Of a stretch of 64,000 nucleotides of DNA, positions 11,527 through 33,626 are shown one piece after another (the stretch's first letter is position 1; each line of letters begins with the position of its first letter). A program made the position numbers and the translations under genes. The stretch is from Actinomyces haliotis (GTDB lineage Bacteria > Actinomycetota > Actinomycetes > Actinomycetales > Actinomycetaceae): assembly GCF_015355765.1 (NCBI RefSeq), contig NZ_JACWNA010000001.1, positions 124,001 through 188,000 of the forward strand, in the 5' to 3' direction. The notes under the pieces were generated by a model that saw only the letters and a program-made list of their open reading frames with translations, made no database searches and was not told the origin of the DNA.

Positions 11527-11684
11527 GCGCGTGATCCGGGTCTGGCCACCCGCCCCCCCCACGAGCACGACCTCCCTGGACGAGCACGATGCCGACGGCG
11601 CCCGTCCCGTCCAAGGAGGTTGTGCTCGTCGTTCGAGGCGGACCCACGGGACCGGCCCGGCTGCCGCCTGACACAATGGCGCCC

Positions 11685-13217
11685 GTGACGAGCACGGACG
11701 AACGCAGCAGTAACGCAGCCACCGAGAGGCCGACCACCCGCGTCGCGGACCCGTGGCCGGCTCCCACCGCAGCCGGACCGCTCGACGCCGTCGTGCCGCT
11801 GCCGGGCTCGAAGTCCCTCACCGCCCGTGCGCTCGTCCTCGCGGCCGTCGCCGACGCCCCCACCGAGCTCACCGGGGTCCTGCGCTCACGCGACACCGAT
11901 CTCATGGTCTCGGCCCTCACCACCCTCGGTGCCCGCGTCGAGCGCCTCGACGCCACGGGACCGCGTCTGCGCGTCACGCCAGCAGCGCTCCCCCTCCCAG
12001 TCGCCACCGGCCCCGACGGCGCGGCGCACGTCGACTGCGGGCTCGCGGGCACGGTCATGCGCTTCGTCCCGCCACTCGCCACCCTCGCTGACGGTCCCGT
12101 CATCTTCGACGGCGACGCCGGAGCGCGTCTGCGCCCTCTCGGACCGGTCCTCGACGCACTGTCAGCCCTCGGCGCCGAGGTGACCTGGCTCGGCGAGCCG
12201 GGGCACCTGCCCGTGCGGGTCGGCCCCGGCAACGGAGGCTTGCTCAAGCCTGGCGGCACCATGAACCCCGGCGAGCCGCACCGCGTCGCCGTCGACGCCG
12301 AGGGCTCCTCGCAGTTCCTCTCCGCGCTCCTGATGCTCGGCCCCCTCGTCCCGGGCGGGCTCGCCCTCACGCCGACCGGTCACGTCCCCTCCCTCCCCCA
12401 CGTCGCCATGACGGTCGCCTCCCTGCGCGGGCGCGGCGTCACCGTCGACGAGCCGGACGCGGACGTGCCCGAGGGCGAGCGCACCTGGACGGTCCGTCCA
12501 GGCCGCCCCGCGGGCGGCGCCGTCTTCATCGAACCGGACCTGTCCAACGCCGGTCCCTTCCTCGCCGCGGCCCTCGTCGCGGGCGGATCCGTCACCGTAC
12601 CCGCATGGCCCTCCACCACGACCCAGGCCGGCGACGCCTGGCGCGATCTCCTCCCCCGCCTCGGCGGTCGGGTCTCGCTCGCCGACGTCGACGACGGGCT
12701 CGCCCTCACGGCTACCGGCGACGGCGCCGCCTCGCTCACCGGCATCGACGCCGACCTCTCGGCCGTCGGCGAGCTCGCTCCCACCGTGGCGGCCCTGGCA
12801 GCCCTTGCCTCCGCGAACGGGCAGGCCTCACGCCTCACCGGCATCGCCCACCTGCGGGGTCACGAAACGAACCGGCTCGCCGCCCTCGTCACCGAGATCC
12901 AGCGAGTCGGAGGACTCGCCCGGGAGACCGACGACGGCATCGAGATCGACGCCCTGCCCGCCGGCGCCGCGCTCCACCCGGCCGTCCTGGAGACCTACGC
13001 CGACCACCGGATGGCGACCTTCGCCGCTCTCCTGGGCGTCGGGATCCCGGGCTGCCAGGTGGTCGACGTCGCCTGCACCTCGAAGACCCTCCCGAACTTC
13101 CCCGCCATGTGGACGACTCTTCTCGAGCCGAGATCGGGACATCCTGACCTCGAGATCGGGACATCCGAACCACGAGATCGGTCACTCGCCCCTGCCTCCG
13201 ACGGAGAGACCCACTGA
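11685..13217 (+). CDS. aroA: 3-phosphoshikimate 1-carboxyvinyltransferase (EPSP synthase)
   Basis: The roughly 510-aa enzyme joins shikimate-3-phosphate and PEP in the aromatic amino-acid pathway. Diagnostic motifs are LPGSKSLTARAL (N-terminal), DCGLAGTVMRF, DAEGSSQFLSALLM, LRGHETNRLAAL, ETYADHRMATFAALLG and the final CTSKTLPNFPAMW. GTG 11685 is preferred because CACAAT lies 7 bases upstream (leaderless pattern); ATG 11676 is the alternative. The conserved protein ends near TTLL. The last 30 or so residues are encoded by a 56-bp repeat (13128-13183) and are probably an acquired tail. The stop overlaps the rsgA ATG by one base. Confidence 0.95.
   Translation: MTSTDERSSNAATERPTTRVADPWPAPTAAGPLDAVVPLPGSKSLTARALVLAAVADAPTELTGVLRSRDTDLMVSALTTLGARVERLDATGPRLRVTPAALPLPVATGPDGAAHVDCGLAGTVMRFVPPLATLADGPVIFDGDAGARLRPLGPVLDALSALGAEVTWLGEPGHLPVRVGPGNGGLLKPGGTMNPGEPHRVAVDAEGSSQFLSALLMLGPLVPGGLALTPTGHVPSLPHVAMTVASLRGRGVTVDEPDADVPEGERTWTVRPGRPAGGAVFIEPDLSNAGPFLAAALVAGGSVTVPAWPSTTTQAGDAWRDLLPRLGGRVSLADVDDGLALTATGDGAASLTGIDADLSAVGELAPTVAALAALASANGQASRLTGIAHLRGHETNRLAALVTEIQRVGGLARETDDGIEIDALPAGAALHPAVLETYADHRMATFAALLGVGIPGCQVVDVACTSKTLPNFPAMWTTLLEPRSGHPDLEIGTSEPRDRSLAPASDGETH
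13128..13183 (+). repeat. 56-bp dispersed repeat, copy 1 (inside the aroA 3' end)
   Basis: It contains tandem 22-base units: AGATCGGGACATCCTGACCT plus CG (13131-13152), AGATCGGGACATCCGAACCA plus CG (13153-13174), and a partial third unit AGATCGGTC (13175-13183). The reverse complement of 36473-36528 matches it without gaps at 47 of 56 positions. Because 22 is not a multiple of 3, the units are read in different frames and give the AroA tail SGHPDLEIGTSEPRDRS. Confidence 0.85.
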
Positions 13218-14332
13218 TGGCCCGCCGCGACACGGGCACCGACGACCCGCGCGTCCGCGTCCGTCCCAACCGCCGCGGCTCGCGCCCGCGCACGAAGCAG
13301 CGCCCCGCCCACGAGGACGCCGTCATCGGCATGGTCACCCGCATCGACCGGGGCCACTACCGCATCCGCCTCGAGGACCCCTCCCTCACCGAGGACGGCA
13401 CCGGCGACATCACCGCGATGAAGGCCCGCGAGCTCGGTCGGGGGAAGGTCGTCGTCGGGGACCGTGTCGGCGTCGTCGGCGACGTCTCGGGCCGCAAGGA
13501 CACGCTCGCCCGCATGGTCCGGGTCGAGGAGCGCCGCACGCTCCTGCGCCGGTCCGCCGAGGACGGCGACGCCGCCGGCACCGAGCGCCCGGTGGTCGCC
13601 AACGCGGAGCTCCTCGTCATCGTCACCGCCGTCGCGGACCCCGAGCCGCGACCGCGCATGATCGACCGCTACCTCGTGGCCGCCTACGACGCGGGGATGG
13701 AGCCCCTCCTCGTCCTCACCAAGTCCGACCTCGCCGACGCGGGTCCGCTCCTCGCGCTCTACGAGCCGCTCGGCGTGGCCTCCGTCGCGACGCACCTCGA
13801 GCGCGCTGTCCGTGAGGCCGGCCCCGACGGCGCCGCCGCGGCCGGGACGGGTGTCGACGCGGTGCGCGAGCGCATCGCCGGCCGCACGAGCGTGTTCGTC
13901 GGCCACTCCGGCGTGGGCAAGTCGACCCTCATCAACGCGCTCGTCCCCGAGGCGCACAGGGTCACCGGGCACGTGAACGAGGTGACGGGCCGCGGCCGAC
14001 ACACCTCGACGAGCCTTCAGGCGGTCGCGCTGCCTGGCGGCGGCTGGGTCATCGACACCCCGGGAGTGCGCTCCTTCGGGGTTGCGCACGTCTCGAGCGC
14101 CGACGTCCTGCGCGGGTTCCCGGACCTGGCCGAGGTGGCCGAGGACTGCCCGCGCGGCTGCACCCACGACGAGGGCGTCATCGACTGCGCGCTCGACGAG
14201 TGGGCCGCCGCGACCGACGTCGACGACGCCGTGCGCGAGCAGCGGGGCAGCCGCGTCGCCTCCCTCCGCCGGCTCCTCGCGCCCTCGCTCGAGGCGGAGG
14301 ACCCGACGCTCCCCAGTGGTCACCACCGCTGA
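13217..14332 (+). CDS. rsgA: Ribosome small subunit-dependent GTPase A
   Basis: This 371-aa circularly permuted GTPase assists late 30S assembly. It has an N-terminal OB-like domain, then G4 (TKSD), G1/P-loop (GHSGVGKSTLIN), switch region (GRGRHTST), G3 (DTPGVRSFG) and a C-terminal zinc knuckle with Cys and His in CPRGCTHDEGVIDC. The N-terminal RPNRRGSRPRTKQRP stretch is basic and probably contacts rRNA. Coupled to aroA by TGATG. In many actinobacteria aroA-rsgA is followed by hisN, but here hisN is 24.7 kb away. Confidence 0.95.
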   Translation: MARRDTGTDDPRVRVRPNRRGSRPRTKQRPAHEDAVIGMVTRIDRGHYRIRLEDPSLTEDGTGDITAMKARELGRGKVVVGDRVGVVGDVSGRKDTLARMVRVEERRTLLRRSAEDGDAAGTERPVVANAELLVIVTAVADPEPRPRMIDRYLVAAYDAGMEPLLVLTKSDLADAGPLLALYEPLGVASVATHLERAVREAGPDGAAAAGTGVDAVRERIAGRTSVFVGHSGVGKSTLINALVPEAHRVTGHVNEVTGRGRHTSTSLQAVALPGGGWVIDTPGVRSFGVAHVSSADVLRGFPDLAEVAEDCPRGCTHDEGVIDCALDEWAAATDVDDAVREQRGSRVASLRRLLAPSLEAEDPTLPSGHHR

Positions 14333-14463: not shown

Positions 14464-15192
14464 ATGTCAGAAGCCCCCACGCGACTCCCGCGCCCGTCCT
14501 GGGCGGACCTCTCGGCCCGCTCAGACCTGTCGGTGGCGCGCCGCAGGGTCCTGGAGACCATCGAGTCGGCCGACGAGCCGATGACCGCCGCTGAGGTGGC
14601 TGAGAGGCTCGACCTCCACCACAACACGGTGCGAGAGCACCTCGACGCCCTTGTCGAGGCGGGCTTCGTCGAGGTCTCCACCAGGCCGACGGGTCGGCGC
14701 GGCCGCCCCGCCCTGCGCTACGCCTCGACCGCACCGGACCCCGCCCAGGTCCTCGACTCCTACCTCACCCTGCTCGACGCCATCGCCGACACTCTCGGGA
14801 CGGGCCCCGAGGCCCAGCGCCTCGCCCGCGAGATCGGTCGACGGTGGGCTCAGCTGACACCGCTCTCCGAGGCCGACGCGGCGACCGCCGGGGCCCCGAA
14901 CGCCCTCACGCGCGCGACGGCGCTGCTTCCCGACCTGTCGACGATGGGCTTCGCCCCCGACGTCGCCGGCGAGGAGATCGTCCTCAAGGCGTGCCCGCTC
15001 GTGACGAGGGACCGCGTCCCGCACTCGCTCGTCTGCCTCATGCACGAGGGCTTCCTCAACGAGGTGCTCGCCGAGCAGGGCCGTGGTCTGAGCCCGGCGA
15101 ACGACCCGGGTTCCCGCACGCACCTGTCCGTCGTCCCGCTGGTGGACGACGGCTGCCACGTCCTCGCGAGCGACGAGCCCGCGACGGTCTGA
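14464..15192 (+). CDS. HTH transcriptional regulator, ArsR/DeoR-SufR-like
   Basis: This 242-aa protein has an N-terminal winged helix (residues about 20-85; TAAEVAERLDLHHNTVREHL is the recognition region, RGRPALRY the wing) and a C-terminal sensor domain. The C-terminal part has three cysteines (KACPLV, SLVCLM, DDGCHV). The first two are separated by 13 residues, which recalls the iron-sulfur ligands of SufR-type regulators, although the third is further away. It is convergent with the nirK operon and next to nitrate genes, so a redox, NO or Fe-S sensing role is plausible. Fold assignment is firm; the signal is inferred. Confidence 0.75.
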   Translation: MSEAPTRLPRPSWADLSARSDLSVARRRVLETIESADEPMTAAEVAERLDLHHNTVREHLDALVEAGFVEVSTRPTGRRGRPALRYASTAPDPAQVLDSYLTLLDAIADTLGTGPEAQRLAREIGRRWAQLTPLSEADAATAGAPNALTRATALLPDLSTMGFAPDVAGEEIVLKACPLVTRDRVPHSLVCLMHEGFLNEVLAEQGRGLSPANDPGSRTHLSVVPLVDDGCHVLASDEPATV

Positions 15193-15204: not shown

Positions 15205-15240
15205 CTGAGCCCCGCCGCGTCCCAGAAAGGCGGGGCTCAG
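15205..15240. terminator. Bidirectional terminator between regulator and nirK
   Basis: CTGAGCCCCGCC and GGCGGGGCTCAG form a perfect 12-bp stem with a 12-base loop. The right arm contains the nirK stop codon, so it serves both convergent genes. Confidence 0.65.
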
Positions 15241-16799
15241 GCCGTCGCCCTGAGGATCCCCTTGGCGCCCTTCTCCATGTCGGCGAAGGCGTGGGTGACG
15301 ATCGAGTAGCTGCCCGCCGCAGGCACCTCGGCCTCGACGAAGCCGCCCTGGGCGGGCTGGAGGGCGAGGGCCTGCGAGCCGCCGTGCCAGGCTCGCCCGA
15401 GCTCGTCGGGGCCGCCGAGGAGGTAGGCGCCCTCGGAGAAGACGGTGTCGAACTGGAGCCCGACGACGTGGAAGGAGCTGGGCAGGCTCGGGCCGGCGTC
15501 GAGCACCCAGAAGCGGACGCGCTCGCCGGCCCTGGCGGCCAGCGGCTCGAGTGCGTACTGGAAGGCGACGCCGTTGAAGCTCATGAGGTCCGGCGTCTTG
15601 GCGGAGATCTTCGCGGTGTCGGGGGTGCCGCCCTCGGGCCCGAGGTAGGTCTCGGACTGGATGAGGAGGTACTCCCTGTCGACGTCGGCGAGGCCGTCGG
15701 GGTCGATGATGACGGCGCCGTACATGCCGGCGGCCAGGTGCTCGCTCATGGGGACCGTCGAGCAGTGGTAGAGCCAGATGCCTGAGTGCTGGGCGGTGAA
15801 CTTGTAGACGAGGCTCTCGCCGGGGTCGATGGAGCGCATGGTGTCGTCCGGGGACACCATGCCGGCGTGGAAGTCGATCGAGTGGCTCATCTCGCCCTTG
15901 TTGACGAGGGTGATCTCGAAGGTGTCGCCGACGTGCCCGCGCAGGACCGGGCCGGGCGCGGTGCCGTTGTAGGTCCAGCGGGTCTGAGTGACACCGGCCC
16001 CGACGTAGGCGTCGGCGACCTCGGTGACGGTGAGGGTCTCGCTGTGGGTCGTGGCCGTGGGCGCGGGGTCGAGGGCGGCGTCCCACGGGGTGAAGCCGTG
16101 GGGCAGGGCGGCGGAGAGGTCGGGGACGGCGTCGGAGCCCGTGCTCGCCGCGGAGGTTGCTGTCGCTGAGGCGGCTGCGCTGGCGCCGTCGGCGGTGACG
16201 TGGAGGACCATGCCCTGGGCGCGGTGGCCGGCGATGGAGCACCAGCCCTCGACGGGCCCGGGGATGACGCCGGCGTCGAGCGTGGCGCTCGCTCCGGCGG
16301 CGACGCGCCCCGTGGTGAGGCTCGTGCCGTCGACGTCGAGGACGAGGTCGTGGACCTGGTCGGCGGTGTTGTCGAGGGTGAGGACGAGGCGGTCGCCGAC
16401 GCTCACCTCGACGGTCTCGGGCACGAAGCGCATGCCGTTGACGGTGATCGTCTGGCGGACGGTGCGGCCGGTGGGGGTGACGCCGTCGGCGCCCGAGCCG
16501 CTGGTGGAGCTGGAGCCGTGCTCGTGGGCGGCGTAGGCGGAGCCGACGACGACGGCCGCGCCCGCCGTGACGAGACCCATGAGGGCGCCGCGGCGGTCGG
16601 TCGCGCGAGCCGCCTGACGGGCGGCCTCGGTGTCCTGCGCGGAGGAGCCGGCTCGGCCGCGCCCGACCGCGGGCGCGGTGCCGGAGGTGACGGCGCCCCG
16701 GTGCGCGGCGCCTCGGGCGCGTCCCGACGCGCCGGGGGTCGATGACGTGGGGGTCGATGACGCAGCGTCGTCCTGCGCGGGCTCGTCGGCGTCACTCAT
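15237..16799 (-). CDS. nirK: Copper-containing nitrite reductase (NirK/AniA-like) with extra N-terminal cupredoxin
   Basis: This 520-aa protein has a cytoplasmic tail of about 70 residues and a hydrophobic anchor or signal (GALMGLVTAGAAVVVGSAYA). A first cupredoxin domain follows with a full type-1 copper set (VHDLVLD, then GWCSIAGHRAQGM). The two NirK domains then show all expected ligands: HSIDFHAG (type-1 His, catalytic Asp, type-2 His), YHCSTVPMSEHLAAGM (type-2 His, type-1 Cys, His, Met), SSFHVVG (catalytic His) and VTHAFADM (type-2 His). It reduces nitrite to NO outside the membrane. The start ATG 16799 overlaps the upstream membrane-protein gene by 8 bases. The extra blue-copper domain probably relays electrons. 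Confidence 0.88.
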   Translation of the reverse strand: MSDADEPAQDDAASSTPTSSTPGASGRARGAAHRGAVTSGTAPAVGRGRAGSSAQDTEAARQAARATDRRGALMGLVTAGAAVVVGSAYAAHEHGSSSTSGSGADGVTPTGRTVRQTITVNGMRFVPETVEVSVGDRLVLTLDNTADQVHDLVLDVDGTSLTTGRVAAGASATLDAGVIPGPVEGWCSIAGHRAQGMVLHVTADGASAAASATATSAASTGSDAVPDLSAALPHGFTPWDAALDPAPTATTHSETLTVTEVADAYVGAGVTQTRWTYNGTAPGPVLRGHVGDTFEITLVNKGEMSHSIDFHAGMVSPDDTMRSIDPGESLVYKFTAQHSGIWLYHCSTVPMSEHLAAGMYGAVIIDPDGLADVDREYLLIQSETYLGPEGGTPDTAKISAKTPDLMSFNGVAFQYALEPLAARAGERVRFWVLDAGPSLPSSFHVVGLQFDTVFSEGAYLLGGPDELGRAWHGGSQALALQPAQGGFVEAEVPAAGSYSIVTHAFADMEKGAKGILRATA

Positions 16800-18321
16800 C
16801 GGTGTGCTCCTCGGTCTTCTTCTGGGCGGGTGCGGGAGTGAGGATGGTCGTGGGACCGCTCGTCCTGCGGTCGGAGGCACTCGACGGACGTGACGACAGT
16901 CCGCCGACAGGGAGCATGCTGCCCCCCGTCGCACCCTTGGGCGGTCCGACCGGGATGCTGAGGGCGACGACGTCGTCGTCCTTCTTGCGGGAGCGGCGGA
17001 CGAGCTCGCGGCCGGACAGGCCCATGCCGACGAGGACGTAGCAGGCGACCGCGCCGGCGACGAGGGCGGCGGTGGCGCGCACGGGCCAGCTGAGGAAGGG
17101 CAGGACGGCGAGGAGCAGGCAGGCGTTCGACGCGGTGACGCGGTAGGCCGCGGCCCGGTCCATGATCGCGTTGATCGCCCGGGTGGTGGCGGGTCCGCCG
17201 CCGAGCATGACGGGGGTGAGGTAGGACAGCGCCGCGGCGAGGACCTGGAGGGCGAAGCCGGCGCCGAGGGCGACGCGCACCCCGTGGATGACGTCGCGGG
17301 CGCCTGAGGCGTCGCCGGCGAGGGTGATGCCGATCCCGATCCTCACGACGCAGGCGAGGAACCAGACGACGGCGGCGGCCGCGGAGGCCGTCGCGAAGGA
17401 GGACGGCGGGACGCGCCGGGCGGTCCGCACCGCGGGGACGACGACGCCGCAGGCACCGGCGAGGTAGACGAGGGCGCCGACGGCGGCGAGCGGCGCCCAG
17501 AGGCCGGAGCACGCGAGGAGGACGGTCCCGACGACGATGACGGGCAGACCGCGGCTCGTCCAGCGCGGCGCCTCGACCTCCATCTTGGTGCGCAGCATCG
17601 TCGGCCACAGCACGGTGAGGGTGCCGAGCACGGTGGTGCCGACGAAGCCGAGGAGCATGGTCATCGTGTGGGAGACGTAGAGGACGTCGGCGAGGTGGAC
17701 GCCGCCCCGCGCCTCCGCCCAGCTCGTGAGGTAGCCGAGGGTGGCACCGACGGCGAGGAGCAGGAGGGCGACGGCGTAGTGGACGGCGAGGGCTGCCAGG
17801 CGCGGGGCGACGGCGCGCCGGTACTGGACGCCGATGGCGAGCACGCCGGCGAGCGCGGCGAGCATGACGACGGTGACGCCGACCATCGCGAGGACCTGCC
17901 AGCCGGCCGTGATCCCGATGAGGACGAGGAGGCTGCCGGCGCTGTGCGCGTAGAGGCGGGCGTCGAGGAGGGCGGCTCCGCCGAGTGCCGGGCGGTGCAG
18001 GAGGGTGTCCGCGAAGTGCGCGGACCAGATGGTGATCGCGGAGCCGATGCCGCCGAGGAGGACGGTGTGCAGCGGCAGCCACTGGCCCCAGCTCGCAAGC
18101 GGTCCGCCGACGACGAGGAGGGCGAGGACGGCGGCGGCCACGACCCAGGCGAGCACGACGGCGTTGCGCCGGACCTGGGTGTTCCGGCGGGTGTGACGCT
18201 GGGCGGGCAGGCGCTGGGTGCCGGGGGTGGCGAAGCCGGCGCCGGGGCGACCGCTGGCGCTGGAGGCGGGCTGCTCGCCCGGACGGCCGGGGCTTCCGGG
18301 CACGCCGACGGAGATGGACAT
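16792..18321 (-). CDS. Histidine-rich polytopic membrane protein of the nirK operon
   Basis: This 509-aa protein has about 12 membrane helices, a polar N-terminal tail (residues 1-50) and a cytoplasmic C-terminal tail rich in basic residues and Pro (about 70 aa). Conserved-looking histidines sit in membrane segments: LPLHTVLLGG, WSAHFADTLLH, LYAHSAG, LAVHYAVAL and YVSHTMTMLLGF. The stretch GFVGTTVLGTLTVLWPTMLR resembles NnrS or heme-copper-like proteins, but no firm family was recognised. It starts directly after the previous gene's stop (TGAATG) and overlaps nirK by 8 bases, so all three proteins are made together. Possible roles are heme or copper binding, NO handling or electron delivery to NirK. 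Confidence 0.65.
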   Translation of the reverse strand: MSISVGVPGSPGRPGEQPASSASGRPGAGFATPGTQRLPAQRHTRRNTQVRRNAVVLAWVVAAAVLALLVVGGPLASWGQWLPLHTVLLGGIGSAITIWSAHFADTLLHRPALGGAALLDARLYAHSAGSLLVLIGITAGWQVLAMVGVTVVMLAALAGVLAIGVQYRRAVAPRLAALAVHYAVALLLLAVGATLGYLTSWAEARGGVHLADVLYVSHTMTMLLGFVGTTVLGTLTVLWPTMLRTKMEVEAPRWTSRGLPVIVVGTVLLACSGLWAPLAAVGALVYLAGACGVVVPAVRTARRVPPSSFATASAAAAVVWFLACVVRIGIGITLAGDASGARDVIHGVRVALGAGFALQVLAAALSYLTPVMLGGGPATTRAINAIMDRAAAYRVTASNACLLLAVLPFLSWPVRATAALVAGAVACYVLVGMGLSGRELVRRSRKKDDDVVALSIPVGPPKGATGGSMLPVGGLSSRPSSASDRRTSGPTTILTPAPAQKKTEEHTDE

Positions 18322-19554
18322 TCAGGCCCTCCTGTCGGGCGCTGGGGTGATGTGCGTGGAGGAAGCGACGGGCTCGGGCCCCGGGGAGGGACGGGCGCTG
18401 GTCGCTCGGACCGTCGCTCCGCTGCGGCGGGTCCTCGTGATGGACCCGGAGGCCAAGGCGCTCACGACGACGATGGCGAGGAAGACGAGGATCGCGGCGA
18501 CGCCGAGCGCCCCGCCGGTCTGCCACGGCCCGGCGGCGCCGACGGCGAGGCCGATGACGCGGGCGGCGAGCCCGAGGTGCAGCAGGGCGTAGGGCAACCA
18601 CATGAGCGGGTGGTAGGGCAGGCGCCGGTGGACGATGGCGGGGACGATCGTCGGCGCGTGCGCCAGGATCATGGAGAAGGCGTAGCCCAGCGCCAGGCAG
18701 TGGATGACGATCTCGTAGGCGGCGCCGGTCCCGCCGTCGATACTCGTGAGGGTCCAGACGACGCCGGCGAGAGCCAGCCAGACGTAGCCGGCGAGCATGG
18801 AGGCGGCCATGAAGCGAGGTCCCCCGCTGGCGCGGATCGTGCGGCGGGCGACGTCGTAGTACGTCATGACGACCGCGAGCGCGAGGAGGGCGGGGCCGAG
18901 GACGAGGTGCGCGGCGTCGGTGACGGGCAGGAGGCAGGCGGCGAGGAGGGCGAGGGCGGACAGGCCGCGGACGGTCCCCTCGACGCCGTCGCCGAGGAAG
19001 GCGACGCGGGCGAGCTCGAGCCGCTCCCCCACGATGGTGAGCACGGGGAAGAGGAGCCAGAGGGGGACCGCGGCGGGGACGGCCTGTGCCGCGGAGGTGC
19101 CCGACGCTCCGGCGGCGAGCCACTGGAGGTCGCCGAGGGCGAGTGCGATGGCGCCGAGGGACTCGACGTCGCCGGCGACGGATGGTGCGCGCCGGTGGAC
19201 GGCGACGTAGATGCCGCACAGGGCGAGAGCCCCGGCGAGGACGACGGCGCAGCCGAGGAGCGCGGGGGCGCCGGCCAGGAGGAGCAGGCAGCCGAGGGCG
19301 GATCCGAGCGGAGCGAGGAAGGCCCAGGGGGCGCGGGCGGCGACGGCGCGCTCGAGGGCGATGACGGTGCCGAGGAAGCCGACGAGCATGAGGGGGCCGT
19401 GGAGGTCGGAGAGCTCGGCGCCGCTCACGGGCGCGGGGAGCCCGACGCGCAGGAGGGCGGCGTCGAGGCCGGCGAGGAGGCAGGCGGCGCCGAGGAGCAG
19501 GCAGATGAGCCGGGGCCAGACGCGGGTCGTGAGGACCTCTGCGCTCTTCGACAC
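18322..19554 (-). CDS. Polytopic membrane protein, NnrS-like, first gene of the nirK operon
   Basis: This protein of about 410 aa has roughly 12 membrane helices. Motifs LSDLHGPLMLVGFLGTVIAL and VIHCLALGYAFSMILAHAPT, then VHRRLPYHPLMW, resemble the His-containing helices of NnrS, a heme-copper protein linked to NO stress in denitrifiers. The match is by eye and partial. I chose GTG 19554 (MSKSAEVL) because AGAGGGG lies about 6 bases upstream; GTG 19575 is an alternative. The stop abuts the next ATG. The order NnrS-like, His-rich, NirK suggests a nitrite/NO respiratory unit. Confidence 0.62.
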   Translation of the reverse strand: MSKSAEVLTTRVWPRLICLLLGAACLLAGLDAALLRVGLPAPVSGAELSDLHGPLMLVGFLGTVIALERAVAARAPWAFLAPLGSALGCLLLLAGAPALLGCAVVLAGALALCGIYVAVHRRAPSVAGDVESLGAIALALGDLQWLAAGASGTSAAQAVPAAVPLWLLFPVLTIVGERLELARVAFLGDGVEGTVRGLSALALLAACLLPVTDAAHLVLGPALLALAVVMTYYDVARRTIRASGGPRFMAASMLAGYVWLALAGVVWTLTSIDGGTGAAYEIVIHCLALGYAFSMILAHAPTIVPAIVHRRLPYHPLMWLPYALLHLGLAARVIGLAVGAAGPWQTGGALGVAAILVFLAIVVVSALASGSITRTRRSGATVRATSARPSPGPEPVASSTHITPAPDRRA

Positions 19555-19598: not shown

Positions 19599-19712
19599 CG
19601 CGTACCGGGCAATGCTCTCACGGCGCGCTCCGTGTCACGTCGGACGCCAACGAGGCCGCCCACCACCCGCCGTACCACGAGCGCGGCGCACCCACAAACG
19701 AGAGGAACCTCA

Positions 19713-20012
19713 ATGAGCGAGAACCCGAACCTCATCCCGATCCAGGAGAAGCACTCCGGCGGCTGCTCCTGCGGCGAGCACGACTCCGGCCGTCTCACCC
19801 TCGACGCCCGCGAGATCCCGCACCGTCTGCGTCACGCCGCCGTCATCGGCGCCGCCTCCTCCCTCAACGTGGGCGAGGGCTTCGACCTCGTCGCCCCGCA
19901 CGTCCCCACCCCGCTCCTCACGCAGATCGACCAGCTGCCCTTCACGTTCCAGCACACCCTCCTGGAGCAGGAGGACGGCTTCGCCCGCGTCGAGATCCTC
20001 CGCGTGGCCTGA
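19713..20012 (+). CDS. DUF2249 domain protein
   Basis: This 99-aa soluble protein has an N-terminal HSGGCSCGEHDSG motif that could bind metal, followed by the DUF2249 core (LDAREIPHRLRHAAVIGA ... FTFQHTLLEQEDGFARVEI). DUF2249 proteins are often found beside hemerythrin, nitrite or NO-related genes, and their function is unknown. The gene is divergent from the nirK operon. The ribosome site GAGGAA is 7 bases before ATG 19713. A strong hairpin follows the stop. Confidence 0.8.
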   Translation: MSENPNLIPIQEKHSGGCSCGEHDSGRLTLDAREIPHRLRHAAVIGAASSLNVGEGFDLVAPHVPTPLLTQIDQLPFTFQHTLLEQEDGFARVEILRVA

Positions 20013-25873: not shown

Positions 25874-26095
25874 GCATCCCGTGAGAAATCCGGGTGCGGA
25901 GAACCCGCGTCCTACCGGGGAAAACACGCCGTTGTCCAACCGGCTACCGGTCGAGTGCATCATGAGCCCAGCACGTGCCGAGGGCCACCCCGCCGACGGC
26001 GCCGCCACCGGCTCCGGCACCCCGCCCACCGCACCGACGCACGGGCCCGCGAGCCCTCCAGGTCATCAGCACGACGTCACTCAACAGGAGACCAC
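25874..26095 (+). other. Long structured narK leader, possible cis-regulatory RNA
   Basis: The space between the AT-rich promoter and narK holds local stem-loops: GCATCC with GGGTGC (25874-25896), GCGG with CCGC (25896-25908), and ACCGG with CCGGT (25939-25951). An open frame from GTG 25881 (72 codons) ends at TGA 26097-26099, overlapping the narK ATG, and could be a leader peptide. I could not match it to a known riboswitch class. Confidence 0.35.
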
Positions 26096-27436
26096 ATGAG
26101 CAGCGAGATCCCGCTCGACACCTCGGGGAAGGTCCTCCAGGGCTGGAACCCCGAGGACCCGGAGCACTGGGACTCCAAGATCGCCTGGCGGACCCTGGCC
26201 ATCTCGACCTTCTCGATGGTCATCGCCTTCTGCGTCTTCTTCCTCGTCTCGGCCATCGCCCCGAAGCTCAAGCTCATCGGCTTCGACCTCACCAAGGGCC
26301 AGCTCTACTGGCTCACCGCCATGCCCGGCCTGTCCGGCGGGCTCATCCGCCTCATCTACATGTTCCTGCCGGCCCCCCTGGGCACGCGCAAGCTCATCGG
26401 GATCTCCTCGATGCTCTACCTGATCCCGATGATCGGCTGGTTCTTCGCCGTCCAGGACGTCCACACGCCCTACGCCGTCCTCCTCCTGCTGTCCTTCCTC
26501 TGCGGCGTCGGCGGCGGCACCTTCTCCGGCTACATGCCCTCGACCGGCTTCTTCTTCCCGAAGCGACTGTCAGGCACGGCCCTCAACCTCCAGGCCGGCA
26601 TCGGCAACCTCGGCATGTCGATCATCCAGATCGTCGGCCCCTGGCTCATGGGCTTCGGCCTCCTCGGCATCACCTTCATCGCCCCGCAGCGCCAGGCCGG
26701 CAACGAGGCGATCTTCGTCCACAACGCCGCGATCTTCTTCGTGCCGTGGACGATCCTCGCCGCGATCCTCGCCTTCGCCTACCTCAAGGACGTCCCGGTC
26801 AAGGCGAACTTCCGCCAGCAGATCGACATCTTCTCCAACCCGAACACGTGGTTCATGACCATGCTCTACGTGCTCACCTTCGGGCTCTTCTCCGGCTTCT
26901 CCGCCCAGTTCGGCCTCCTCATCAACAACACCTTCGGCGCCTCGTCCCACCTCGCCGAGCTCGGCTTCAAGGACCTGCCGCTGGGTGCCACCTACGCCTT
27001 CCTCGGCCCCCTCATCGGCTCGATCGTCCGCGTCGCCTGGGGCCCGCTGTGCGACAAGCTCTCCGGCGGCCTGTGGACCTTCGTCTCCGCCGTCGGCATG
27101 GCCGTCACCCTCGGCTGGGCCGCCCTCTACCTCCACCCGAGCGACCCGTCCCAGTTCACGCCCTTCCTGTGGGCGATGCTCGCCATGTTCTTCTTCGCAG
27201 GCATCGGCAACGCCGGCACCTTCAAGCAGATGCCGATGATCATGCCCAAGACCCAGGCCGGCGGCGCCATCGGCTTCACCGCCGCCATCGCCTGCTTCGG
27301 GCCCTTCCTCGTCGGCGTCGCCCTGTCCTCTATGGACGCCGCCACCTGGTTCTGGATCTCCGCCGCCTACTCGGCCCTGTGCGCCGTCGTCTGCTGGATC
27401 CGCTACGCCCGTCCGAACGCCCCCTTCCGGGGCTGA
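26096..27436 (+). CDS. narK: Nitrate/nitrite MFS transporter
   Basis: This 446-aa, 12-helix protein has the nitrate-porter signature regions (GVGGGTFSGYMPSTGFFFP, LNLQAGIGNLGMSI and GIGNAGTFKQMPMIMPK). It exchanges external nitrate for cytoplasmic nitrite or co-imports nitrate, supplying NarG. An N-terminal tail of about 30 residues precedes helix 1. ATG 26096 has CAGGAG 8 bases upstream. It is the first gene of narKGHJI and is separated from narG by a strong hairpin. Confidence 0.95.
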   Translation: MSSEIPLDTSGKVLQGWNPEDPEHWDSKIAWRTLAISTFSMVIAFCVFFLVSAIAPKLKLIGFDLTKGQLYWLTAMPGLSGGLIRLIYMFLPAPLGTRKLIGISSMLYLIPMIGWFFAVQDVHTPYAVLLLLSFLCGVGGGTFSGYMPSTGFFFPKRLSGTALNLQAGIGNLGMSIIQIVGPWLMGFGLLGITFIAPQRQAGNEAIFVHNAAIFFVPWTILAAILAFAYLKDVPVKANFRQQIDIFSNPNTWFMTMLYVLTFGLFSGFSAQFGLLINNTFGASSHLAELGFKDLPLGATYAFLGPLIGSIVRVAWGPLCDKLSGGLWTFVSAVGMAVTLGWAALYLHPSDPSQFTPFLWAMLAMFFFAGIGNAGTFKQMPMIMPKTQAGGAIGFTAAIACFGPFLVGVALSSMDAATWFWISAAYSALCAVVCWIRYARPNAPFRG

Positions 27437-27441
27437 CGCCA

Positions 27442-27476
27442 CGGCCCGGTCCGCCCGCTCAGAGCGGACCGGGCCG
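27442..27476 (+). terminator. Intra-operon hairpin between narK and narG
   Basis: CGGCCCGGTCCGC and GCGGACCGGGCCG make a perfect 13-bp stem with a 9-base loop. It may partly terminate narK transcripts or protect mRNA ends, setting the ratio of transporter to reductase. Confidence 0.55.
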
Positions 27477-27523
27477 AACCGCTTTCCGACCACCACCTCC
27501 ACCGCACCGATCGAAGGACCTCG

Positions 27524-30500
27524 ATGAGCACCGTGCACGAGCCCCTCGTCCCCAGCGACGACACCCAGGTCGAGACCGCCCCAGGGCTGTTCTCCCTCGG
27601 CTCCTACCTCCGCAAGGGCAAGGCGTCCAAGGACGGCCGCCGACTCTTCCTCGAGGGCGGCCGCGAGGCCGACACCTTCTACCGGCACCGCTGGAGCCAC
27701 GACAAGATGGTCCACTCCACGCACGGAGTGAACTGCACGGGCTCGTGCGCCTGGGAGGTGTACGTCACCGACGGCGTCATCACCTGGGAGAAGCAGATCA
27801 CCGACTACCCGACCACCGGGCCGGACATGCCGGAGTACGAGCCGCGCGGCTGCCCCCGCGGCGCCGCCTTCTCCTGGTACACCTACTCCCCCACCCGCAT
27901 CCGCTACCCCTACGTGCGCTCCGTCCTCCTGGACGCCTTCCGCGAGGCGCGAGCCCGCCACGACGGCGACGCCGTCGCCGCCTGGGCCGAGGTCACCGGG
28001 AACCCCGAGACCGCCCGCGCCTACAAGTCCGCCCGCGGCAAGGGCGGCATGGTGCGCGTCGGCTGGGACGAGGCCATGGACATCATCGCCGCGGCCTACG
28101 TCCACACGATCCGCACCTGGGGCCCGGACCGCTGCGCCGGCTTCTCCGTCATCCCCGCCATGTCGATGCTCTCCTACGGCGCCGGCTCGCGCTTCCACGA
28201 GCTCATCGGCGGCACGATGCTGTCCTTCTACGACTGGTACGCGGACCTGCCGCCCGCCTCCCCGCAGGTCTTCGGCGACCAGACCGACGTCCCCGAGGCC
28301 GGCGACTGGTACAACTCGCAGTTCCTCATCATGTGGGGCTCCAACCTCCCAGTCACCCGCACCCCCGACGCCCACTTCATGACCGAGGCCCGCTACCACG
28401 GCCAGAAGGTCGTCGCCGTCTCCCCCGACTACGCGGACAACACCAAGTTCGCCGACCAGTGGCTGCGCGTCGCCCCCGGCACCGACGGGGCCCTCGCCAT
28501 GGCGATGGGGCACGTCATCCTCAAGGAGTTCCACGTGGGGCGGCGCGAGCCCTACTTCCTGGACTACATGCGCCGCCACACCGACGCACCCTTCCTCATC
28601 GAGCTCGACGAGCGCCCCGAGGGCGGCTACGTCCCCGGCCGCTTCGTCACCGCCGACGGCGTCGACGGCGTCGCCGAGGGCGCCCCCAAGAACGCCTTCC
28701 GACCGCTGGTCTGGGACCGCGAGCGCGGCCCCGCCGACCCCGGCGGCACCCTCGCCGACCGCTTCACCCCGGAGGGCGAGGGCCGCTGGAACCTCCTCAT
28801 GGAGGGCGTCGACGCGATCATGAGCATCGACGACCTCTCCGGGCAGCGCGAGGTCCTGCCGACCGAGGTGCTCCTCCCCCGCTTCGACCTGCCCGCCTCC
28901 AAGACCCCCACCGGGAGCGTCGGCGGCGGCGTCGTCCACCGCGGCGTCCCCGCCACGCGACTGGCCGACGGCCGCCTCGTCACCACCGTCTACGACGTCC
29001 TGCTCGCCAACTACGCCGTCGAGCGCCCCGGCCTGCCCGGCCAGTGGCCCGCCGACTACCAGGACGCCACCGTCCCCGGCACCCCCGCCTGGGCCAGCGA
29101 GATCACCGGCGTCGCCGGCCCCGCCGCCATCCGCGTCGCCCGCGACTTCGCGCAGAACGCCGTCGAGTCCCAGGGCCGCTCGCAGGTCATCATGGGCGCC
29201 GGGATCAACCACTACTACCACGCCGACGAGATCTACCGGACGATCCTCGCCCTCACCTCCATGTGCGGCACCCAGGGCGTCAACGGCGGCGGCTGGGCCC
29301 ACTACGTCGGGCAGGAGAAGGTCCGCCCGATCGGCGGCTGGTCCATGTTCGCCTTCGCCCTCGACTGGGCCCGCCCGGCCCGACAGATGATCTCGACCGC
29401 CTTCTGGTACCTCACCACCGGCCAGTGGCGCTACGACGACACCCCCGCCGACCGCCTCGGCTCACCGCTGGGTACCGGAGATCTCGCGGGCAAGTCCGCC
29501 GCCGACACCATGGTCGAGTCCATGAAGCGCGGCTGGATGCCCTCCTACCCGACCTTCAACCGCAACCCGCTCCTCCTCGGCCAGCAGGCCGCTGAGGCCG
29601 GGATGAAGCCCGCCGAGTACGTCGCCGACCAGCTGAGCAAGGGCGAGCTGCGCTTCGCCTGCGAGGACCCCGACGCCGAGGAGAACTTCCCGCGCATCCT
29701 CGCCTCCTGGCGCACGAACCTCCTCGGCTCCTCCGCCAAGGGCACCGAGTTCTTCCTGCGCCACATGGTGGGCGCGGACAACGACGTCAACGCCGTCGAG
29801 ACCCCCGAGGACCGCCGCCCCAAGTCGATGACCTGGCGCGAGGCCCCCCAGGGCAAGCTCGACCTCATGTGGACCGCGGACTTCCGCAACACCTCCACCA
29901 CCCTGCACTCCGACGTCGTCCTGCCCGCCGCGACCTGGTACGAGAAGTACGACCTGTCCACGACGGACATGCACCCCTTCATCCACTCCTTCAACATGGC
30001 GATCAACCCGCCGTGGGAGGCGCGCAGCGACTTCGACATCTACCAGCAGCTCGCGCGCATGGTCTCGCAGTGGGCACCGACGTACCTCGGCACCCAGACC
30101 GACGTCGTCGCCGCCCCGCTCAGCCATGACACGCCCGACGCCATGACCATGGCGCACGGCGACGTGCGCACCCTGCCCGAGGGCTGGGTCCCCGGCGTCA
30201 CGATGCCCAAGCTCGTCCCCATCGAGCGCGACTACACGCAGATCCTCAACAAGTTCAACACCGTCGGCCCGCTCGTGGAGTCCCCCGGCATCCCCGCCAA
30301 GGGCATCATGCTGGTGGCCGACAAGGAGATGGAGAAGCTGCGCCGCGCCCACGGGACCGGCACCGGCGCGGGCGAGGACCGCCCGCTCATCGACACCCCC
30401 ATCAGGGCCGGCGACGCCGTCATGCACATGTCCGGCGCCACCAACGGCCGCCTCGCCACCCAGGGATGGGGCACGCTGTCGAGGCGGACCGGCACCGACC

Positions 30501-31276
30501 TCGTCGAGCTGAGCGAGGAGGAGGCCGGCAAGCAGATCACCTTCGCGGACACGCAGGTCAAGCCCCAGCCGGTCATCACCACCCCCGAGTGGTCCGGCTC
30601 CGAGCACGGCGGGCGCCGCTACAGCGCCTTCGTCGTCAACGTCGAGCACCACAAGCCGTGGCACACGCTCACCGGCCGCATGCACTACTACCTCGACCAC
30701 GACTGGATGCGGGACATGGGCGAGTCCCTCCCGCAGTTCCGTCCGCCGCTGGACCTCGCGAGCCTCTACGGCGAGCAGGCCCCCGGCACGGTCTCCCAGT
30801 CCGGGGCGGGCACCGCGCAGGTCGCCGTCCGGTACCTCACCGCGCACAACAAGTGGGCGATCCACTCCCAGTACTACGACAACCTCCACATGCTCACCCT
30901 GGGCCGAGGCGGTCAGACCATCTGGATGAGTCCCCAGGACGCCGAGAAGATCGGCGTGAGGGACAACGAGTGGGTCGAGGCCTACAACCGCAACGGCAAC
31001 GTCGCGGCCCGCGCCATCGTCTCGCACCGCATCCCCGAGGGCATGGTCTTCATGTACCACGCCCAGGAGCGCACGATGAACACCCCGCTCACCGAGGAGT
31101 CCGGCCGTCGAGGCGGCACGCACAACTCGCTCACGCGCATCGTCCTCAAGCCCAGCCACTTCGCGGGCGGCTACGCCCAGCTCTCCTACGCGTTCAACTA
31201 CATCGGCCCGACCGGAAACAACCGTGACGAGGTCACGCTCATCCGCCGCCGCGTCAACCAGGAGGTGACCTTCTGA
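27524..31276 (+). CDS. narG: Respiratory nitrate reductase alpha subunit (molybdenum)
   Basis: This 1250-aa catalytic subunit reduces nitrate to nitrite using bis-MGD and an FS0 cluster. The N-terminal HSTHGVNCTGSCAWEVYV has the His and Cys cluster ligands. FLIMWGSNLPVTRTPDAHF is the characteristic NarG stretch near the Mo site. MLSYGAGSRFHELIGG and GINHYYHADEIYRT follow. There is no Tat signal, so it is cytoplasmic-facing, as for NarGHI-type enzymes. GAAGGA lies about 8 bases before ATG 27524. It is coupled to narH by a one-base TGATG overlap. Confidence 0.97.
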   Translation: MSTVHEPLVPSDDTQVETAPGLFSLGSYLRKGKASKDGRRLFLEGGREADTFYRHRWSHDKMVHSTHGVNCTGSCAWEVYVTDGVITWEKQITDYPTTGPDMPEYEPRGCPRGAAFSWYTYSPTRIRYPYVRSVLLDAFREARARHDGDAVAAWAEVTGNPETARAYKSARGKGGMVRVGWDEAMDIIAAAYVHTIRTWGPDRCAGFSVIPAMSMLSYGAGSRFHELIGGTMLSFYDWYADLPPASPQVFGDQTDVPEAGDWYNSQFLIMWGSNLPVTRTPDAHFMTEARYHGQKVVAVSPDYADNTKFADQWLRVAPGTDGALAMAMGHVILKEFHVGRREPYFLDYMRRHTDAPFLIELDERPEGGYVPGRFVTADGVDGVAEGAPKNAFRPLVWDRERGPADPGGTLADRFTPEGEGRWNLLMEGVDAIMSIDDLSGQREVLPTEVLLPRFDLPASKTPTGSVGGGVVHRGVPATRLADGRLVTTVYDVLLANYAVERPGLPGQWPADYQDATVPGTPAWASEITGVAGPAAIRVARDFAQNAVESQGRSQVIMGAGINHYYHADEIYRTILALTSMCGTQGVNGGGWAHYVGQEKVRPIGGWSMFAFALDWARPARQMISTAFWYLTTGQWRYDDTPADRLGSPLGTGDLAGKSAADTMVESMKRGWMPSYPTFNRNPLLLGQQAAEAGMKPAEYVADQLSKGELRFACEDPDAEENFPRILASWRTNLLGSSAKGTEFFLRHMVGADNDVNAVETPEDRRPKSMTWREAPQGKLDLMWTADFRNTSTTLHSDVVLPAATWYEKYDLSTTDMHPFIHSFNMAINPPWEARSDFDIYQQLARMVSQWAPTYLGTQTDVVAAPLSHDTPDAMTMAHGDVRTLPEGWVPGVTMPKLVPIERDYTQILNKFNTVGPLVESPGIPAKGIMLVADKEMEKLRRAHGTGTGAGEDRPLIDTPIRAGDAVMHMSGATNGRLATQGWGTLSRRTGTDLVELSEEEAGKQITFADTQVKPQPVITTPEWSGSEHGGRRYSAFVVNVEHHKPWHTLTGRMHYYLDHDWMRDMGESLPQFRPPLDLASLYGEQAPGTVSQSGAGTAQVAVRYLTAHNKWAIHSQYYDNLHMLTLGRGGQTIWMSPQDAEKIGVRDNEWVEAYNRNGNVAARAIVSHRIPEGMVFMYHAQERTMNTPLTEESGRRGGTHNSLTRIVLKPSHFAGGYAQLSYAFNYIGPTGNNRDEVTLIRRRVNQEVTF

Positions 31277-32892
31277 TGAAGGTGATGGCCCAGATCGGCA
31301 TGATCATGAACCTCGACAAGTGCATCGGCTGCCACACGTGCTCCGTCACGTGCAAGCAGGCGTGGACGAACCGCGAGGGCACCGAGTACATGTGGTTCAA
31401 CAACGTCGAGACCCGTCCCGGCGTCGGCTACCCCAAGGGGTGGGAGGACCAGGACAGGTGGAAGGGCGGCTGGAGGCGCACCCGCAACGGTCGCCTCGTC
31501 CCGCGCGGCGGCGGCCGTCTGCGCAAGCTCGCCACCATCTTCGCCAACCCGGACCTGCCCGGCGTCGAGGACTACTACGAGCCCTGGACCTACGAGTACG
31601 ACAAGCTGCTCTCGGCCCCCAAGGACTCCCCCGCGCTGCCCGTGGCCCGTGCCAAGAGCCAGCTCACCGGCGACTACATGTCGAAGATCGAGTGGGGCCC
31701 GAACTGGGACGACGACCTCGGCGGCTCCATGGAGACCCTCGCCGAGGACCCGGTCCTCGCCGGCATGAACGAGAAGGTCCGCACCCAGATCGACCAGACC
31801 TTCATGTTCTACCTGCCGCGCATCTGCGAGCACTGCCTCAACCCCACCTGCGTCTCGGCCTGCCCGAGCGGCGCCATGTACAAGCGCTCCGAGGACGGCA
31901 TCGTCCTGGTCGACCAGGACCGCTGCCGCGGCTGGCGCATGTGCGTCTCCGCCTGCCCGTACAAGAAGGTCTACTTCAACCACACCACGGGCAAGGCCGA
32001 GAAGTGCACCCTGTGCTACCCGCGCCTCGAGGTCGGCCAGCCGACCGTCTGCTCCGAGACCTGCGTGGGCCGCCTGCGCTACCTCGGCGTCCTCCTCTAC
32101 GACGCCGACCGCGTCTCCCAGGCCGCCGCCGTCGAGGACCCCCAGGACCTCTACATGGCCCAGCGCGAGATCCTCCTCGACCCGCGCGACCCGGAGGTCA
32201 TCGCCTCCGCACGCGCCGAGGGCGTCCCGGAGTCCTGGATCACCGCCGCGCAGGAGTCCCCGCTGTGGGACCTCATCCAGACCTACGAGGTCGCCCTGCC
32301 GCTGCACCCCGAGTACCGCACCATGCCGATGGTCTGGTACATCCCGCCGCTGTCCCCCGTCGTCGACGAGGTGGCCGCGGCCGGGATGGACGCCGAGGAC
32401 CACCGCGTCCTCCTCTCCGCCGTCTCCGACATGCGCATCCCGCTGGAGTATCTCGCCGGGCTCTTCACCGCCGGCGACACGAACCCCGTCGAGAAGTCGC
32501 TGCGCCGCCTGGCGGCCATGCGCTCCCACATGCGCGACGTCGACCTCGGTACCACCCCGGACCCGGCGATCGCCGCATCGGTGGGCACCACCGGCGAGCG
32601 GCTCGAGGCCATGTACCGCCTCCTCGCCATCGCCAAGTACGACGACCGCTACGTCATCCCCACGAACAAGCCCGAGGTGCCCCGAGGCATGGAGGCGATG
32701 GGCGACGACGTGCGCACCCTGCTGGGCGACGGCGCCCCCGAGGCCTGCCACACCGCCGACGTCGCCTCCTTCCACGGCCAGCCCGGCTCCGGCCGCGTCG
32801 CCCTGCCGATGCCCTCCGTGCGCCCCTCCCCCGTGCCGGCCGCGGGTCCGGGCCTCGCGGGGGTCGGCTCCAGCGGCGAGGGTCGGTCATGA
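31276..32892 (+). CDS. narH: Respiratory nitrate reductase beta subunit (Fe-S)
   Basis: This 538-aa electron-transfer subunit has cysteine motifs CIGCHTCSVTC, CEHCLNPTCVSAC, CRGWRMCVSAC (Trp replacing a Cys, giving the usual [3Fe-4S] cluster of NarH), CTLCYPRLEVGQPTVCSETC. It passes electrons from NarI to NarG. The last 40 residues are Gly/Pro/Ser-rich and variable. Both ends overlap neighbouring genes by 1-4 bases. Confidence 0.97.
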   Translation: MKVMAQIGMIMNLDKCIGCHTCSVTCKQAWTNREGTEYMWFNNVETRPGVGYPKGWEDQDRWKGGWRRTRNGRLVPRGGGRLRKLATIFANPDLPGVEDYYEPWTYEYDKLLSAPKDSPALPVARAKSQLTGDYMSKIEWGPNWDDDLGGSMETLAEDPVLAGMNEKVRTQIDQTFMFYLPRICEHCLNPTCVSACPSGAMYKRSEDGIVLVDQDRCRGWRMCVSACPYKKVYFNHTTGKAEKCTLCYPRLEVGQPTVCSETCVGRLRYLGVLLYDADRVSQAAAVEDPQDLYMAQREILLDPRDPEVIASARAEGVPESWITAAQESPLWDLIQTYEVALPLHPEYRTMPMVWYIPPLSPVVDEVAAAGMDAEDHRVLLSAVSDMRIPLEYLAGLFTAGDTNPVEKSLRRLAAMRSHMRDVDLGTTPDPAIAASVGTTGERLEAMYRLLAIAKYDDRYVIPTNKPEVPRGMEAMGDDVRTLLGDGAPEACHTADVASFHGQPGSGRVALPMPSVRPSPVPAAGPGLAGVGSSGEGRS

Positions 32893-33626
32893 CGACCTTC
32901 GTGCGCGCCCCGCGCGTGCTCGCGGCCCCGGAGCCCGTGGCCGTCACCTCCGCCCAGCGCGCGACGACCCACATGATCGCCTCCCTCCTCCTCGACTACC
33001 CCGAGGAGACCACGATCAGCGACCGGCTGGGCGCCTCCGAGGCCGCCCTCGCCGGCCCGGACGCACCGCCGGAGCCCGTGGCCGCAGCCCTGCGCCGCTT
33101 CATCACGGCCGCCCATGACATGGGGCCCCGGGCGCTCGCCGAGCACTACGTCGAGACCTTCGACCGCCGTCGGCGCTGCTGCCTGTACCTCACCTACTAC
33201 GCGGTGGGCGACACCCGGCAGCGCGGCAGCGCGATCCTCGCCTTCAAGGAGGCGCTCGCAGCAGCGGGCTGGGGGATGACGAACGACGAGCTGCCGGACT
33301 ACCTGCCGGTCGTCCTCGAGCTCTCGGCGCGCTCGGGCGACGAGATCGCCGACGTCCTCCTGTCCTCCCACCGCGAGGGCATCGAGGTGCTGCGCGCCGC
33401 CCTCACGGACGCGCGCAGCCCCTACACGGACCTCGTCGAGGCCGTCTCCATGACGCTGCCGGAGATCGACGAGGCCACCGCGGACCGGATCAGGGCGCTC
33501 GTCGCGGCCGGCCCGCCCACGGAGACCGTCGGCGTCACCGACGTCCTGCCCTTCCCGACACTCCCCGTCCGGAACGCCCTCGCCGGGCTCGCTCCGGCAG
33601 CCGCCACCCAGGAGACCCGCTCATGA
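32889..33626 (+). CDS. narJ: Nitrate reductase molybdenum cofactor assembly chaperone
   Basis: This 245-aa cytoplasmic chaperone of the redox-enzyme maturation family has core motifs LLLDYPEET, YVETFDRRRRCCLYLTYYA and DELPDYLPVVLELSA. It holds apo-NarGH until Moco and heme-bearing NarI are in place; it is not part of the final enzyme. ATG 32889 overlaps the narH stop by 4 bases (ATGA), and its stop overlaps narI in the same way. Confidence 0.95.
   Translation: MTTFVRAPRVLAAPEPVAVTSAQRATTHMIASLLLDYPEETTISDRLGASEAALAGPDAPPEPVAAALRRFITAAHDMGPRALAEHYVETFDRRRRCCLYLTYYAVGDTRQRGSAILAFKEALAAAGWGMTNDELPDYLPVVLELSARSGDEIADVLLSSHREGIEVLRAALTDARSPYTDLVEAVSMTLPEIDEATADRIRALVAAGPPTETVGVTDVLPFPTLPVRNALAGLAPAAATQETRS

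Follow-up and report, generated by a model that had tools for sequence, protein, structure and literature searches.

Copper nitrite reductases (NirK) are commonly supplied with electrons via the cytochrome bc1 complex and soluble carriers. The solved NirK chain of Hyphomicrobium denitrificans (PDB 2dv6, 6tfd) consists of an N-terminal cupredoxin and the NirK core, and the extra cupredoxin was judged to lie too far away to pass electrons effectively to the core (PMC4770552). A long actinobacterial NirK of the Propionibacterium acnes type, made up of a transmembrane domain of about 400 amino acids, a cupredoxin with a CX4HX4M motif and the NirK core, was reported in 2016 with the function of the fused membrane domain given as unknown and neither its fold nor a partner named (PMC4770552). 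Among open papers we found none that assigns a fold, partner or function to this domain, and in the open literature no description of a direct electron route from the membrane to NirK. A paper on a fusion in Chloroflexi was set aside, as it concerns NirS and not NirK.

The second family of interest is NnrS (PF05940), whose members are 12-helix membrane proteins tied to nirK, DUF2249 and NO genes, with a conserved His on transmembrane helix 10. nnrS genes are members of NO-responsive regulons (PMC1274295). Here we analyse a nirK operon of Actinomyces haliotis; the nearest relatives of the genome place it in Actinomyces. Unlike in the P. acnes type, the operon has a gene of its own for the membrane part, P2, and ahead of it a second such gene, P1.

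Organization of the operon

The window, i.e. the whole stretch of 64,000 nucleotides that was analysed (contig NZ_JACWNA010000001.1, positions 124,001 to 188,000), carries P1, P2 and nirK as a compact block (Table 1). At the P1/P2 junction, CCTGAATGTCC, the stop codon is followed directly by the start codon (TGAATG), and P2 overlaps nirK by 8 bases (16792-16799), just as a sequence-only reading of this DNA had described. The third-position G+C of all three reading frames is that of true genes. The idea of that reading that two membrane proteins and NirK are produced together as a module is supported. Upstream and divergent from the operon lie moaA and a gene for a DUF2249 protein. The respiratory nitrate reductase encoded in the window is the likely source of nitrite.

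Some features of the surroundings recur elsewhere. The winged-helix regulator adjoins the nirK operon in several genera and carries in its C-terminal part a conserved CPL...VC..H.G motif that would suit an Fe-S cluster and the sensing of NO or redox state. The aroA-like and rsgA-like genes beside it (window positions 11589-14332) keep their order near the nirK operon in most of the fetched Actinomyces loci. DUF2249 proteins adjoin P1 or NnrS in Actinomycetes and Proteobacteria (L182-L184, L186, L188), often together with a metal-sulfur cluster assembly factor.

Table 1. Features of the nirK operon and its neighbourhood (window coordinates)
Feature	Position	Strand	Remarks
Winged-helix regulator	14464-15192	plus	convergent with nirK; conserved neighbour with conserved CP...C..H motif
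NirK gene	15237-16799	minus	520 aa, ATG start; three-domain copper nitrite reductase
NirK catalytic core	15237-16040	minus	type 1 and type 2 Cu sites
NirK cupredoxin domain	16185-16457	minus	about residues 115-205; type 1 Cu ligands H150, C187, H192, M197 (CX4HX4M)
NirK N-terminal membrane anchor	16524-16589	minus	about residues 71-92, read from sequence
P2 gene	16792-18321	minus	509 aa, ATG start; 12-helix membrane protein, P1 homologue, near-obligate NirK partner
P2 invariant H85	18067-18069	minus	
P2 invariant H218	17668-17670	minus	
P2 invariant Q359	17245-17247	minus	
P1 gene	18322-19575	minus	417 aa, GTG start; NnrS-like 12-helix membrane protein
P1 invariant H59	19399-19401	minus	
P1 invariant H292	18700-18702	minus	
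P1 invariant H306	18658-18660	minus	
P1 invariant E184-R185	19021-19026	minus	
DUF2249 protein	19710-20012	plus	divergent from operon
MFS transporter (NarK-like) and respiratory nitrate reductase (NarGHI)	25955-34417	plus	context

The nitrite reductase

The assignment of the third gene to copper nitrite reductases was borne out by the residues of the window protein. The core has a complete set of type 1 (H306, C346, H354, M359) and type 2 Cu ligands (H311, H345, H503) and the catalytic residues D309 and H444; copper ligands and catalytic residues are conserved to 95-100% in the family. In the predicted model of a fused homologue the core superposed on AniA with 1.7 Å over 268 residues (Z 34.7) and on known NirK structures with 1.3-1.9 Å, i.e. 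the modelled core has the two-cupredoxin fold of NirK. On the other hand, the window protein scored 139 bits (E 1.7e-40) against TIGR02376 and the fused relatives 122-172 bits. Because the curated equivalog cut-off is 296 bits, we did not file the window NirK under this model. Taken whole, the soluble part has its best match in the three-domain NirK of H. denitrificans, at about 30% identity. Both have a cupredoxin in front of the core, while the solved chain from Hyphomicrobium lacks a membrane module. The N-terminal anchor of the window NirK corresponds to helix 13 of the fused proteins, which spans 441-459 in the model of the fused homologue.

Linkage and fusion of P2 and NirK

The sequence-only reading suggested a survey of co-occurrence with nirK, and the outcome was nearly perfect. 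Of 200 genomes surveyed in the family, 105 had both P2 and NirK, three only P2, three only NirK and 89 neither (Fisher 5e-49, with the relatedness of the genomes left in). Among the discordant cases that were inspected, L128 and L129 have broken or partial genes and L130 lies at the end of a contig. In two Actinomyces genomes (L128:4646-6664, L129:5668-6410) broken remnants of nirK were seen with no P2 nearby; there P2 and nirK appear to have been lost together. P1 is missing in 23 of 108 NirK genomes of the family, and P1 without P2 was never found in this family.

Genomes of the order showed the same linkage of P2 and NirK as the family. P2, cupredoxin and NirK usually form a single open reading frame of about 900 amino acids there, which has the layout of the P. 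acnes-type NirK (PMC4770552). According to the NirK tree the state changed between fused and separate about nine times. L047 has P1, P2, cupredoxin and NirK in one frame, and L005 has P1 and P2 in one frame. In a genus of another family (L123-L126) it is P1 that precedes cupredoxin-NirK in the fusion, with P2 not found, which shows that P1 can also take the place of P2.

Outside the class, most NirK loci of the phylum are without P1 and P2. Three of them (L164, L167, L174) have a neighbouring P2, which in L167 adjoins a free-standing cupredoxin gene and NirK. Twice P2 was found with no NirK nearby (L127:4615-6456, L180:7881-9215); the P2 of L180 lies near a molybdopterin oxidoreductase, an MFS transporter and a response regulator. 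The module is real and occurs widely among Actinomycetes, and part of it was already known as a fusion; its linkage and the homology of its membrane proteins are well supported.

Conserved residues of the membrane proteins

Both membrane proteins had been called His-rich. This label had to be dropped, because only 9 of 417 residues of P1 and 10 of 509 of P2 (2%) are His. The motifs quoted for them, HGPLM, IHCLALGYAFSM, YVSHTMTMLLGF and WSAHFADTLLH, are all present, but the His of the last is not invariant (H102 is His in 29 of 48 sequences), and the invariant PLH85 of P2 had been missed. The sole invariant His residues of P1 are H59 on helix 2 and H292 and H306 on helix 10. Those of P2 are H85 on helix 2 and H218 on helix 6; in addition P2 conserves one Gln and structural Gly, Pro and Trp, and it has no conserved Cys or Met. 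In the predicted models P1 has 12 transmembrane helices; a fused P2 homologue also has 12, followed by a thirteenth that runs on into the cupredoxin.

Relation of P1 to NnrS

P1 had been described as NnrS-like, and a weak profile match and the common His on helix 10 bear this out. P1 scored 13.1 bits against PF05940 (E 0.059), which is below the Pfam gathering cut-off of 28 bits; the profile matched 6 of 47 P1 members with a best E of 8e-4. In a profile alignment (hhalign E 2.6e-4) H292 of P1 fell on H304 of NnrS at the start of helix 10 (HALTVG). P1 differs from NnrS in that it has HGPLM at H59 instead of the WHxHEM motif, which is on helix 2 of all six NnrS proteins aligned, and in Variovorax a separate NnrS gene adjoins P1. 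The search of the genome of the window with PF05940 gave nothing above threshold, nor did that of the control genomes.

Homologues of P1 in Cupriavidus, Paraburkholderia and Variovorax, in which all key residues are conserved, adjoin NnrS, hemerythrin, YtfE, nitric-oxide reductase or DUF2249, and in Rhizobium and Gemmobacter NnrS itself adjoins nirK and DUF2249. Because of these neighbours and the aligned His we regard P1 as NnrS-like in its context and in one His. The NO-stress neighbours of the proteobacterial P1 fit protection against NO better than electron supply, and NO protection is the likeliest role of P1 in Actinomyces.

P1, P2 and the fold of heme-copper oxidases

In subunit I of heme-copper oxidases the low-spin heme is held by helices 2 and 10. 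The predicted P1 model (pLDDT 92) superposed along its full length on subunit I of these enzymes (CcoN, NorB; Z 24-28), best on CcoN of the cbb3 oxidase with Z 28.3 over 358 residues at 3.7 Å, and on cNOR with Z 25.9, although identity was 8-15%. Thus the model gives P1 the 12-helix subunit I fold of the heme-copper oxidase superfamily, and its invariant His residues are on helices 2 and 10, the pair that carries the low-spin heme in oxidases. A sequence search of solved structures yielded no match for P1. Alignments of P1 and P2 with profiles of aa3 subunit I and qNOR by hhalign were not significant; because those profiles are shallow, a relationship may still exist.

The profiles of P1 and P2 matched each other with a probability of 94.7 and E 5.7e-8 over 320 columns, while unrelated 12-helix MFS profiles, used as controls, gave E 0.45-0.48. 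By sequence profile the two proteins are homologous over their full length. P2 probably has the heme-copper-oxidase fold, because it is related to P1. Further hints are weak COX1 matches in two P2 members (best E 1e-5) and an AHxH...LGW stretch on helix 6 of several P2 proteins that resembles the oxidase heme helix (AHFHYVVFG). Neither Pfam nor NCBIfam assigned P2 to a family, the NnrS profile did not match it (hhalign E 0.03-0.08), and the search of solved structures returned chance matches only (E 0.06 and above). In the PDB comparison of the fused P2-NirK model the match list was filled by NirK and multicopper chains only. A profile hit above cut-off in a well-described family would have gone against the view of an undescribed pair, and neither P1 nor P2 gave one.

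The CuB site of the superfamily is formed by one His on helix 6 and two on helix 7. P1 has no invariant His on these helices and P2 a single one. Judged by their sequences, neither protein should therefore be able to use the known mechanism of oxygen or NO reduction. With these results the membrane part is set close to the heme-copper-oxidase fold, and we found no open paper that had done so before.

Respiratory background of the genome

Among the genes called in the window there is no NO reductase, in line with the sequence-only reading, which spoke of the window alone. Elsewhere in the genome we found a qNOR-type enzyme (PF22085 and PF00115) at L111:2618-5038 (C8) and L112:3940-6360 (C20). 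Its locus is present in two identical copies of 4.4 kb at contig ends, i.e. a true repeat or an assembly overlap. The qNOR-type enzyme and the NarI of the window are presumably b-type heme enzymes, as their families are. In roughly half of the NirK-bearing Actinomyces genomes no protein of PF00115, the family of such NO reductases, was seen, and all 14 genomes of the genus that have one also have P1 as well as P2. According to a survey of 2024, many organisms of the Actinobacteriota and ammonia-oxidizing archaea NirK clades lack Nor (PMC10999283).

Cytochrome bc1 was detected neither in the genome of the window nor in any of 37 genomes of the genus, while the Corynebacterium glutamicum control was positive. 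No c-type cytochrome assembly protein was found in the genome of the window; 16 of 41 genomes of the genus have kept one. Yet P2 is also kept in 23 NirK genomes with bc1. Thus P2 is not simply a substitute for bc1, and the argument from the absence of bc1 is strong for Actinomyces and weaker elsewhere.

Function of the membrane module

As to function, the sequence-only reading had left a choice between electron transfer to NirK, detoxification of NO and maturation of the copper sites. We consider electron supply the best of these readings, at even chances. Because bc1 is absent, a cytochrome c unlikely and the module repeatedly fused to a cupredoxin, the membrane module is the obvious donor of NirK. 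Our proposal, held at even odds, is that the three genes specify a nitrite reductase complex in the membrane that draws its electrons straight from the quinol pool. It starts from the gene anatomy, the one-to-one linkage, the repeated fusion, the homology of P1 and P2, the P1 fold, the intact NirK sites and the fact that no bc1 was found; what we infer beyond these is the heme, the oxidation of quinol, the direction of electron flow and the side of the membrane. P2 would oxidize menaquinol and hold a heme b between the His residues of helices 2 and 6, near the outer face. Electrons would pass from P2 to the cupredoxin domain of NirK and from there to its type 1 and type 2 coppers; here the nitrite formed by NarGHI would be converted to NO. 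P1 would be another member of the superfamily, of NnrS-like type, in which helices 2 and 10 may hold a heme; it may handle or protect against NO or serve as an alternative or additional electron module. In its most specific form, which we put forward tentatively, P2 (or P1 where it substitutes) would be a quinol dehydrogenase on a heme-copper-oxidase scaffold without an oxygen or NO site, with a heme between helices 2 and 6 of P2, and the whole a self-contained menaquinol:nitrite oxidoreductase that bypasses bc1 and cytochrome c. We know of no oxidase with a heme between these helices.

A division of labour, in which P2 either supplies NirK with electrons or anchors it while the dispensable P1 serves NO protection only, overlaps with this proposal and narrows the role of P1. 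We rate it slightly short of even. It accounts well for P1 being absent from part of the NirK genomes in which P2 is nearly always present, for the NO-stress neighbours of P1 in Proteobacteria and for the presence of P1 in every genome of the genus with a PF00115 protein; the fusion of P1 to cupredoxin-NirK in L123-L126, where no P2 was found, argues that P1 can take the membrane position. If instead both P1 and P2 were NO-tolerance proteins of the NnrS type, which bind NO or shield metal centres near NirK and transfer no electrons, the homology of P2 with the NnrS-like P1, the aligned His, the NO genes around the proteobacterial P1, the NnrS genes beside nirK and DUF2249 and the many NirK genomes of the genus without a PF00115-type NO reductase would find a ready explanation. 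However, repeated fusion in front of a cupredoxin and strict linkage to NirK exceed the needs of a general NO defence, P2 has no match to the NnrS profile, and all genomes of the genus with a PF00115 protein retain P2. We hold this reading to be rather unlikely.

Fusion and adjacency alone would suit just as well a P2 that merely anchors NirK and its cupredoxin in the membrane or loads them with copper. Yet 12 helices are many for an anchor, and the window NirK has an N-terminal helix of its own; P2 conserves no Cys or Met, and relatives outside the class make cupredoxin-NirK without any P2. Such a role is improbable. The fold of P1 and the weak COX1 matches of P2 might suggest that one of the two is a novel heme-copper oxidase or NO reductase, which we judge very improbable. 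A new NO reductase was rejected, since the CuB ligands are missing and a qNOR-type gene is already present elsewhere in the genome.

Thus we favor, at the even chances stated above, the view that the operon encodes a quinol-fed nitrite reductase of the membrane. P1, a member of an NnrS-like family, would by its predicted model belong to the heme-copper-oxidase fold class. If the proposal is true, a heme-copper-oxidase fold would deliver electrons rather than act as a terminal reductase, and a domain of the kind reported in 2016 as of unknown function would be given one. Bacteria of the Actinomyces type are common in the mouth, and a direct quinol route would then explain how they respire nitrite and release NO.
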